DNA of 64,000 nt from an uncultured Roseburia sp. (GTDB lineage Bacteria; Bacillota; Clostridia; Lachnospirales; Lachnospiraceae): positions 20,023 through 84,022 of the forward strand of contig CALWHT010000008.1 in NCBI GenBank assembly GCA_944380515.1. The letters run 5' to 3'. The notes below the pieces were generated by a model. The model worked only from the letters and a program-made list of their open reading frames with translations. It had not been told where the DNA came from and did no database searches. This document shows positions 16,275-47,795 of the stretch, piece after piece (the stretch's first letter is position 1; every line of letters starts with the position of its first letter). A program made the translations under genes and the position numbers.

Positions 16275-18269
16275 TTACTTATACTGCCTGCGGAACTGCA
16301 CCGGCGTCATATCATATGCCTTTTTAAACAGCCGGTTAAAATGCTCCACATTCTCATAGCCCACGCTTGCGGCAATCGACTCCACCGTCTGATTTGTCTC
16401 CTTTAGCATCCGCCTTGCCTTTTTCATCCGGGCCGCTTTCACCGCGTCCTGAAACGTCATTCCCGATTTTTCTTTGATATATTTGGAAAGGTAAGGCTTG
16501 GAAAGATGAAACTTTTCCGCAAGCACATCCATCGTCACATCCGCATAATGGTTCTGAATAAAATTCATGATTTCCATGACGCGCGCATCCCTGCCCTCGC
16601 AGATATTTTCGCTTTTCGCCATCTTATTTGCGGCCGTAACAAGCGCTGCGATGGAGCTCTTGATAATATCCTCGTCAATGCCGACGCCCCAGAACTGTCT
16701 GCCCTGGCAGATGATTTCCACATATGCCGCCGCTCTTGCGGAGGAACCAACCGAAATCGCATGCTCCTGGTAAATTGCAAGCTCGTAGCTTACGCCAAAA
16801 TACATCTTGATCGCATTGCTGACCGCGTCCAGACGCCCGTTTCCGTTTGTCTCAATCACTCTGCGCTCGCCGCCCTGCTCAATCGTCACCTTTGCGGAGA
16901 TTCCGTCCTTCTGCTCAAAATGACATTCCGGAATGTCAAACACATCCTTCTGGTTGACATAATGTTCACAAAAAATCTGATAAATCATATCCGGCGTCAA
17001 TTCCTCGTGCCGGTGGTCGGAAACACCCTTGACCAGGTAGCCGACCTCCTCCTTCATCTGATCCGGCAGCACCATGCCAAAATTCTGTTTGAGCACAAAT
17101 GCGACGCCGCCCTTTCCGGACTGGCTGTTGATACGGATAACGTCCGACTCGTATTCCCTTCCGACATCCTTCGGGTCAATCGGCAGATACGGCACATCCC
17201 AGCGCTCCCCGCTCTTTCCCGCTTCTCTCCACGCCATACCCTTGGATATCGCGTCCTGATGGGAACCGGAAAACGCGGTAAACACCAAATCTCCGGCGTA
17301 GGGAGTTCTCTCGTATACCCGCATGCGCGTAAAACGCTCATATTTTTCACGGATGGCGGGCAGGTTGGAAAAGTCAAGCTTCGGGTCTACCCCGTGGCAC
17401 ACCATGTTCAGCGCCAGCGTCACGATATCCACATTTCCGGTACGCTCTCCGTTGCCGAACAGCGTGCCCTCGATGCGGTCCGCCCCCGCGAGCACGCCGA
17501 GCTCCGCGTCGCTGATGCCGCAGCCCCGGTCATTGTGCGGGTGCACGCTCAGCACAACATTGTCCCTGTATTTTAAATGCTTGTGGATGTACTCAATCTG
17601 GCATGCAAACACATGCGGCATTGCAATCTGAACCGTCGTCGGAATATTGATGATCGCCTTGTGCTCCGCATCCGGCTTCCAGACATCAAGCACCGCATTG
17701 CAGACCTCCACCGCGTAATCAACCTCCGTGCCCGGAAAGCTCTCGGGGCTGTACTCAAAGGTAAAGTTGCCGTCGGTCTGCTCCGCAAGCTCCTTTAACA
17801 GCACCGCGCCGTCCACCGCAAGCTGCTTTACCTCCTCCCTGCTCTTTTTAAACACCTGCTCGCGCTGCGCCACGGAGGTGGAGTTGTAGAGGTGAATCAC
17901 GGCGTGGGGCGCTCCCTTGACCGCCTCAAAGGTCTTTTTGATGATATGCTCCCTCGCCTGCGTCAGCACCTGAACCGTAACGTCTTCCGGTATCATATTC
18001 CGCTCGATTAACGCCCTCATAAAATTGTATTCCGTCTCGGAAGCCGCAGGGAATCCTACCTCGATCTCCTTAAAGCCAATATCAACAAGCATCTGGAAAA
18101 ACTCGATTTTTTCCTCGAGGCTCATCGGCTCAATGAGCGCCTGGTTTCCGTCTCTTAAATCGACGCTGCACCAGATGGGCGGCTTGTCGATCGCGTCCTT
18201 TTTTACCCAGTCATAGGTAATTTCCGGCGGCATAAAGTAAGATTTTCCGTATTTTTCTGCAATATTCAT
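16275..18269 (-). CDS. leuA: 2-isopropylmalate synthase fused to a C-terminal AraC-type DNA-binding domain
   Basis: Residues 1-330 form the HMGL-like TIM barrel (metal site SVDLRDGNQ and VHPHNDRG), about 430-560 the LeuA dimer/allosteric domain that binds leucine, and about 565-664 a complete AraC-type double helix-turn-helix (MDVLAEKFHLSKPYLSKYIK, then TVESIAASVGYENVEHFNR, ending TPVQFRRQYK). The frame is open without a break, so this is a genuine fusion of 664 residues against about 560 for leuA2-type enzymes. The enzyme condenses acetyl-CoA with 2-oxoisovalerate. I chose the ATG at 18269 because GGAGG lies upstream. A leucine T-box controls it. The product may also act as a leucine-responsive regulator. 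Confidence 0.92.
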   Translation of the reverse strand: MNIAEKYGKSYFMPPEITYDWVKKDAIDKPPIWCSVDLRDGNQALIEPMSLEEKIEFFQMLVDIGFKEIEVGFPAASETEYNFMRALIERNMIPEDVTVQVLTQAREHIIKKTFEAVKGAPHAVIHLYNSTSVAQREQVFKKSREEVKQLAVDGAVLLKELAEQTDGNFTFEYSPESFPGTEVDYAVEVCNAVLDVWKPDAEHKAIINIPTTVQIAMPHVFACQIEYIHKHLKYRDNVVLSVHPHNDRGCGISDAELGVLAGADRIEGTLFGNGERTGNVDIVTLALNMVCHGVDPKLDFSNLPAIREKYERFTRMRVYERTPYAGDLVFTAFSGSHQDAISKGMAWREAGKSGERWDVPYLPIDPKDVGREYESDVIRINSQSGKGGVAFVLKQNFGMVLPDQMKEEVGYLVKGVSDHRHEELTPDMIYQIFCEHYVNQKDVFDIPECHFEQKDGISAKVTIEQGGERRVIETNGNGRLDAVSNAIKMYFGVSYELAIYQEHAISVGSSARAAAYVEIICQGRQFWGVGIDEDIIKSSIAALVTAANKMAKSENICEGRDARVMEIMNFIQNHYADVTMDVLAEKFHLSKPYLSKYIKEKSGMTFQDAVKAARMKKARRMLKETNQTVESIAASVGYENVEHFNRLFKKAYDMTPVQFRRQYK

Positions 18270-18292: not shown

Positions 18293-18595
18293 AAATAAAA
18301 AAGTCTCCGTAGAAAACCTTTCGATTCATCTACAGAGACGCAAAATCATTCTTTACGCGGTACCACTCTGCTTCATGACGTCCGCTTTCCCGCAAAACGC
18401 CACGCTCTCTCCGGCACTGTTATGCCTTCTCCCCTTTCTACGGCGGGCACTCCGTCCGAACCTACCCAACACGCGTATCCCGCATGCCTTCAGCCGGCAG
18501 CTCCAAGGTGAGTTCCCCGTATTCCTCCGACCGCCTTGCACCCTCCGGCGGCTCTCTGATTTCCGGTCCACGGCTACTGCTCCTTTTCATCGCTT
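18293..18595 (-). ncRNA. Leucine T-box leader with terminator
   Basis: The minus strand carries the T-box sequence AGAGTGGTACCGCG (18356-18369), the Stem I AGTA motif (GCAGTAGCCG), and a specifier region GAACTCACC whose CTC codon (18510-18512) specifies leucine. A terminator follows: GTCTCTGTAGA pairs with TCTACGGAGAC, then six T (18293-18339). Uncharged tRNA-Leu should stabilise the antiterminator and switch leuA on. The 458 bases between leuA and the Rrf2 gene hold this leader and its promoter. Confidence 0.93.
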
Positions 18596-18620
18596 TTCAT
18601 TTGGAACAATTGTGTTATAC

Positions 18621-18650
18621 ATAGTAACACATCCTGCCTGTACATGGCAA
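18621..18650 (-). promoter_or_regulatory. Promoter of the leuA T-box transcript
   Basis: Minus-strand -35 TTGCCA (18645-18650) and -10 TACTAT (18621-18626), 18-bp spacer, about 25 bases before the T-box Stem I. Confidence 0.6.
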
Positions 18651-18727
18651 GGTGTTATTTTATCAATTTTCTTGATTTATTATATCGTTTTTGAAAACGA
18701 TGTTACACACCCCTTTGGCGCATATTC

Positions 18728-47674: not shown

Positions 47675-47697
47675 AGGAACCGTTAAAAATAAATACA

Positions 47698-47784
47698 GAA
47701 CGCTAGGGGTGCGGAATGCTGAGAGATGTTTTTCATCGACCCTTATTACTTGAACCGGATAATACCGGCGTAAGGAAGCGGTTT
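47698..47784 (+). ncRNA. TPP riboswitch (THI element)
   Basis: The conserved TPP aptamer blocks are present in order: AGGGGTGCGGAATGCTGAGA, ACCCTTATTACTTGAACCGG and ATAATACCGGCGTAAGGAAG. It lies upstream of thiT. Thiamine pyrophosphate is expected to switch the transporter off. Confidence 0.95.
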
Positions 47785-47795
47785 CCATGAAATGT

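Follow-up and report, generated by a model that had tools for sequence, protein, structure and literature searches.

The minus-strand gene at positions 16275–18269 of the window (the whole stretch of DNA analysed, 64,000 nucleotides) encodes a 664-residue protein joining LeuA to an AraC-type double helix-turn-helix (HTH), and this protein, LeuA-AraC, is likely to act both as a leucine-inhibited synthase and as the leucine-switched autogenous class II activator of its own gene. From sequence comparison there is a fusion, its conservation, selection on its HTH, an operator-like element upstream of leuA, a link between that element and the HTH, and a characteristic promoter geometry.

The frame of leuA-araC, recovered as an open frame, by Pfam and by genome and order searches, is unbroken on the minus strand from a start ATG at 18269 to a stop at 16275, with an upstream in-frame ATG that would give an alternative product of 684 residues. 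Every Pfam match scored above its gathering threshold, in the order HMGL-like (residues 32–307, 237.7 bits), IPMS_D2 (327–394, 114.8 bits), LeuA_dimer (PF08502, 423–550, 92.5 bits) and HTH_18 (583–662, 81.2 bits, profile positions 1–80 of 80). The LeuA part, with the catalytic HMGL-like domain, IPMS_D2 and the leucine-binding LeuA_dimer, occupies residues 1–551 (16617–18269, minus strand). It is followed by a variable linker at residues about 552–567 (16569–16616, minus strand), delimited by sequence entropy and by a coil at 554–561 in an AlphaFold2 model, and then by the double HTH at residues about 568–664 (16278–16568, minus strand), with recognition helices near 590–600 and 640–651. Against NCBIfam, residues 17–549 matched 2-isopropylmalate synthase PRK03739 at 796.6 bits (cut-off 455), and TIGR00970 scored 664.1, below its cut-off of 697.4; judged by domain and family profile matches, the protein is an isopropylmalate synthase. 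Its HMGL-like domain contains VDLRDGNQ, HPHNDRG and SGSHQDAI, which we take to be the metal and active-site motifs. In the region of the leucine pocket Y500, E502, H503 and G476-N477-G478 are invariant across 67 fused proteins, and Y500 aligns with Tyr554 of M. tuberculosis LeuA, a position of known role.

The AlphaFold2 model of the fusion (mean pLDDT 81.3, pTM 0.59, 67 sequences) is poor at residues about 321–390 and unreliable in the placement of the domains relative to each other; following a short linker it contains seven helices within residues 562–663, the pattern of an AraC DNA-binding domain, at a block pLDDT of 80–90, falling to 73 over the final four residues. The best solved relative of the body was M. 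tuberculosis LeuA, and those of the tail included YesN (3lsg), XylR (4fe4), SoxS (7w5w), AraC (2k9s) and MarA (1bl0). The preliminary description had placed LeuA and an AraC double HTH in one frame, and this is borne out by the intact 664-residue frame, the Pfam matches and the seven modelled helices. Within its own genome leuA-araC is the only full-length LeuA match, the other 20 matches falling on the HTH part, apart from one that covers 106 residues of the catalytic domain with 27% identity.

Among 36 same-genus genomes (G000–G035) the full-length fusion was found in 30; one more genome has it split over two contigs, in another it is truncated where a contig ends, and the remaining four had no fusion at the search threshold. 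The same search covered 24 genomes belonging to other families of the order and found it in none of them. Sampling of the order detected it in at least 87 of 393 genomes, covering 30 genera that all belong to the window's family. In a sample of the phylum (398 genomes) four of the 21 genomes with a match at E <= 1e-230 were fused, and one fused genome of this sample (G792) lies outside the window's family. Among the named organisms that carry it are Sporomusa ovata DSM 2662, S. silvacetica and Anaerocolumna sp. AGMB13025, the record of the last being titled a complete chromosome; most holders are gut bacteria. One fused match among these genomes (G265:C2:6116-8110; one of the at least 87) carries a single in-frame TGA. 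Since the fusion recurs at 66–98% identity in many separate genomes and on a complete chromosome, a join made during assembly, which the preliminary description had allowed for, is excluded. That a sequencing or assembly artefact fused two genes is accordingly given practically no probability, being refuted by conservation in 30 sampled genera and by the Anaerocolumna sp. AGMB13025 chromosome.

Conservation of the HTH was examined in the same 67 fused proteins. Mean entropy came to 0.52 in the catalytic domain and 1.10 in the dimer domain; the linker (551–566) reached 2.29 and the HTH (567–661) 1.08, with values of 0.64 and 0.60 for the two recognition helices. S595, K596, E642, H643 and R646, at positions assumed here to be DNA-facing by analogy to MarA, are each a single residue in 66–67 of the 67 proteins; among 12 AraC paralogues position 642 is occupied by S, A, C, Y, K, N or E, and positions 595, 596, 643 and 646 vary less. 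When the window was paired with each of eight relatives, dN of the HTH was lower than that of the dimer domain in 8/8, and its dN/dS was 0.02–0.05 in the four of eight pairs in which dS was unsaturated. By these measures the HTH is under purifying selection and its recognition helices are nearly fixed, and the earlier suggestion that the HTH residues might lack conservation in homologues falls away. An HTH serving as a structural or oligomerisation appendage which does not bind DNA is very improbable, as the recognition helices are conserved beyond the domain average, purifying selection is acting and a DNA element is linked to the domain.

This element is a conserved operator-like sequence of 47 bp at 18648–18694 (minus strand), scoring 43.6 bits with a leuA matrix whose training set included this site. 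Its two blocks are ATAATAAATCAAG (18671–18683) and ATAAAATAACACC (18651–18663), both on the minus strand, and TTAAAATAAATCAA and TTAAATTTAATCA repeat inside it at 23 bp (22 in some loci). Described as a 23-bp direct repeat (0.140) or as an inverted repeat about its middle (0.164) the element fits similarly, which counts against the preferred reading, since AraC-type domains bind direct half-sites in tandem. In the genome of the window it is the only core-pattern site at zero or one mismatch, with five sites at two. A gapped-word search recovered TAAA-N4-ATCA in 70 of 93 fused leuA upstream regions and in 1 of 93 reversed controls, and with the 47-position matrix 91 of the 93 regions exceeded 15 bits, the reversed maximum being 8.2.

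Across all distinct upstream regions of at least 300 bases, the element (at least 15 bits) was present in 108 of 112 fused loci, in none of 43 HTH-less loci (28 near relatives and 15 from a distant LeuA branch), in the single locus with an out-of-frame HTH (L213) and in all five leuA genes cut by contig ends. Regions of fused genes without a scoring element were L030, L036, L233 and L248 (4/112), and these also speak against the preferred reading; by eye L233 has the blocks at altered spacing and L248 a weaker copy. A search for the HTH in the 43 HTH-less loci, L213 and 11 later loci found it in L213 only, where for 19 of the 43 less than 400 bases past LeuA were examined and a distant detached HTH could escape (that of L213 was still seen). 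Hold-out loci behaved similarly, 17 of 19 new fused regions reaching at least 33 bits (one duplicate excluded) and all 18 new HTH-less regions remaining below 10; among later loci the fused L303 of G792 scored 40.9 bits and 11 further HTH-less regions all scored below -1, L302 and L304 being duplicates of loci already scored. When clades were held out both ways, with the site register taken from the full matrix, fused regions exceeded 14 bits in 41/45 and 59/67 cases, with HTH-less maxima of 13.6 (L215) and 5.2 and reversed maxima of 7.3 and 6.6. In one of these hold-outs the HTH-less L215 outscored 4 of the 45 fused regions, a further point against the preferred reading.

The element is gone in three nested HTH-less lineages, namely L066 (-16.9 bits), L090 (-18.5) and L211 (-11.7), and in L066 the flanking AACGCACCTTG persists next to the decayed element. 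The leuA of Sporomusa retains it. As the sampled genomes are related, only the three HTH losses, Sporomusa and G792 approach independent events. Because presence and absence of the element follow the HTH, LeuA-AraC is probably a regulator of its own synthesis. The earlier proposal that LeuA is also a transcription factor gains support here from a conserved HTH together with a DNA element that tracks it; the palindrome that had been anticipated upstream of ilv/leu genes in common was not found, the conserved element sitting at leuA itself.

Instead, the element might serve a different regulator (CodY, or a LysR type with a T-N11-A box) or be an UP element, the HTH having some other role. AT-rich and placed at the distance of an UP element, it has a core, ATCAA-N5-TTGAT, that is compatible with the spacing of T-N11-A, which we take to be the LysR-type box consensus. 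However, C and G positions within it are fixed (0.98 and 0.88), it is absent from 43/43 HTH-less leuA regions and was lost three times together with the HTH, and of the 31 sites with zero or one mismatch in 53 fused genomes leuA accounts for 27. This alternative is therefore judged improbable, and CodY site, LysR site and UP element were each rejected as the identity of the element on account of its tie to the HTH and its fixed C and G positions.

The position of the element relative to the promoter bears on how LeuA-AraC would act. A likely weak −35 hexamer, TTGCCA (18645–18650, minus strand), overlaps the end of the 47-position matrix, so that the element abuts the −35 of leuA, and a likely −10 hexamer, TACTAT (18621–18626, minus strand), follows at a spacer of 18 bp; both are read from the sequence, and a scripted choice of the −10 fell on TATAAC, a few bases downstream of TACTAT. 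Across loci a −10-like hexamer lies at a preferred distance from the element, at strip positions 62–63 or 67–68 in 78 of 96. The best −35 match to TTGACA, sought within stretches no longer than 160 bases, placed by the element in fused regions and by the T-box in HTH-less ones, averaged 3.80/6 in 90 fused regions, seven short ones being left out, versus 5.17/6 in 24 HTH-less regions with a T-box (p 6e-8, kinship ignored). Activators of class II among the AraC type sit directly upstream of the −35. Activation is thus favoured over repression, given the position of the element and the poor −35.

The same protein and site could also form an autogenous repressor of the PutA kind with leucine as co-repressor, which is regarded as rather unlikely although it is the most serious of the alternatives. 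The element touches the −35, a position that could equally serve repression, and a second word, [AG]TCAA-N5-TTGA, is found 58 or 74–77 bp downstream of the first element at 14 loci, contig ends truncating two of these; it thus falls close to the start site or beyond it, a placement suited to looping or roadblock operators. This word was also found six times in the matching upstream interval, however; other loci with the main element show no second one, and the −35 hexamers of fused promoters are weak. The loci with the second word are L040, L041, L013, L043, L118, L045, L048, L018, L049, L127, L028, L081, L083 and L097. A different candidate operator, GTGTTA-N7-TAACAC at the −10 of the window, was dropped since the genome has a single copy and, across the loci scanned, it was seen in no species but that of the window and a 98% sister. 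The leuA −10 is spanned at approximately 18609–18630 of the window (minus strand) by a perfect inverted repeat, GTGTTACTATGTATAACAC, present once in the genome and, across the loci scanned, shared with the 98% sister alone; it is possibly the site of another regulator.

A 35-bp pattern was used to locate sites throughout 53 fused genomes, six of which gave no match at two mismatches. All 14 sites with zero mismatches and 13 of the 17 with one are at leuA, and this concentration suggests that the main target of LeuA-AraC is its own gene. In G034 (L254:2909-3257) and G013 (L255:6097-5737, minus strand) the element is followed by a T-box and then by a gene of the CstA family (Pfam CstA at E 4e-147 in G034; alike by eye in G013), and the specifiers of these T-boxes look leucine-like by eye (CUA, CUC). 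The G013 site is one of the four one-mismatch sites away from leuA and that of G034 is additional. The other one-mismatch copies elsewhere than leuA are at G292:C3:32354, G284:C1:1725460 and G382:C5:2107552. On a small contig of G019 (L250:1-449, minus strand) an element of 39.9 bits precedes a response-regulator-like frame.

Downstream of the promoter in the window, a covariance match places the T-box leader of leuA at 18331–18599 (minus strand; 83.1 bits, E 1.6e-18), below the Rfam gathering score of 93. From the alignment its specifier loop was read by eye as GAA-CUC-ACC, giving the leucine codon CUC. The genome of the window has 13 T-box matches, and among the ten whose downstream gene was readable by eye leuA is the only one for branched-chain amino acid biosynthesis. 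A regular expression found T-boxes in 24 of 112 fused loci (none in 88) versus 24 of 43 HTH-less ones, so that it is the HTH-less loci of near relatives that make the contrast. As the expression misses some T-boxes (for example those of L215 and L225, found by cmscan), cmscan was run on 40 loci and detected a T-box in 3/20 fused versus 17/19 HTH-less loci (Fisher p 3e-6, kinship ignored; the unfused count is 17/20 with the out-of-frame L213 included). The fused L013 and L040 have no T-box, and neither does L066, which lacks both element and HTH. T-box and fusion occur together in the window species and in its sister at 98%. The two-level control that had been envisaged thus holds for the window species but is a minority state among fused genes, as shown by the 24/112 found with the regular expression. 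Other RNA elements noted were a Clostridiales-1 RNA between T-box and HTH-less leuA at L212:1922-2085 (minus strand), an FMN riboswitch at 1411–1525 of the window (minus strand) and a TPP riboswitch at 47695–47793 (plus strand).

The fusion was placed among other LeuA proteins with a quick tree built from 159 cores, which carries a long-branch warning. All 115 fused rows fell within one clade of 119 (SH-aLRT 84); the four non-fused rows inside it are L066, L090 and L211, which are without HTH, and L083, which is cut by a contig end. Further HTH-less relatives, from Faecalibacterium and other families, lie farther out. The genomes of L090 and L211 (G215) gave only generic AraC matches, the best at 36% and 31% identity to the HTH, and L090 has an upstream sequence identical to that of L210 (G346). 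In L213 (also L258; G420:C6 near 72500) the HTH stands right behind LeuA in another frame at a run of A8, and the element is kept; this break may be a real gene split, slippage or a sequence error. In the tree L213 lies outside five rows that lack the HTH (L091, L084, L212, L088 and L214), with weak branch support (82–89), and if this placement is right the fusion would be older and lost more often. The Sporomusa rows nest among Anaerocolumna-like ones (support 83), so that leuA-araC of Sporomusa was probably acquired by transfer.

These observations can be combined in a single mechanism. The LeuA dimer would hold out two AraC DNA-binding domains behind its leucine-binding domain, and these would bind the 47-bp two-block element just upstream of the leuA −35, where the bound protein may make up for the poor −35 by aiding RNA polymerase. 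Leucine on the dimer domain would inhibit the enzyme, rearrange the HTHs and lower transcription, a single allosteric event thereby acting on both the activity and the synthesis of LeuA. In most sampled lineages LeuA-AraC control would replace the T-box, and in the window species the two would operate in series. DNA binding, activation over repression and a leucine switch through the dimer domain are what we infer here from sequence, leucine responsiveness because the leucine-binding domain is retained. We further lean, by a small measure, towards the feedback domain being the sensor of the fused AraC domain, with the enzyme and its operator as a cassette that replaced the T-box in much of the family and moved whole to Sporomusa.

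If true, end-product control would here take a compact form, the enzyme that is inhibited also serving as the transcription factor, and an RNA switch, the T-box, would have been exchanged for a DNA-binding enzyme. Sequenced bacteria offer each of the two states, their combination and reversals, and given the predicted site one promoter fragment and one protein would suffice for a direct test. Many copies of LeuA-AraC are contained in the sequence collections. To our knowledge no LeuA-AraC fusion has been described, and none appeared in the titles and abstract openings of the best matches in the literature searched, which included few subscription papers. The trigger-enzyme and T-box/leuA literature likewise had nothing on the fusion by title or abstract, a literature search for RbkR found nothing, and a term search of the main text of PMC5171806 gave no mention of leucine or isopropylmalate.

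Enzymes joined to a DNA-binding domain that act as regulators include Ada (an alkyltransferase with an AraC-type HTH), BirA and NadR, and these differ from LeuA-AraC in belonging to DNA repair or cofactor pathways and in responding to other signals. The AraC/XylS regulators (XylR, SoxS, AraC, MarA and the YesN-type DNA-binding domains) have the complete double HTH in common with LeuA-AraC, whose attached domain is instead the LeuA enzyme with its feedback domain. M. tuberculosis LeuA (1SR9; 3FIG with leucine bound) is of the same LeuA type, with 44–46% identity over the full-length chains as aligned by Foldseek and a sequence match over residues 26–519, but it matches the LeuA part only, the alignments showing no DNA-binding domain. 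T-box control acts on the same gene and, in the window, senses the same end product as charged tRNA (CUC); it differs in being RNA antitermination and is largely complementary to the fusion across the sampled loci. A self-regulating enzyme with a DNA-binding domain is of a known kind, as PutA, a proline catabolic enzyme with a DNA-binding domain, is described as the autogenous regulator of its regulon (PMC5293562). Trifunctional PutA and LeuA-AraC are alike in combining a metabolic enzyme and a DNA-binding domain in one chain. PutA works in catabolism as an autogenous repressor that switches to the membrane, and its ribbon-helix-helix (RHH) domain is N-terminal, whereas LeuA-AraC is biosynthetic, has its AraC domain at the C terminus and has a site adjoining the −35; by Pfam the RHH and proline dehydrogenase domains are absent from LeuA-AraC, which has the AraC HTH and isopropylmalate synthase domains in their place.
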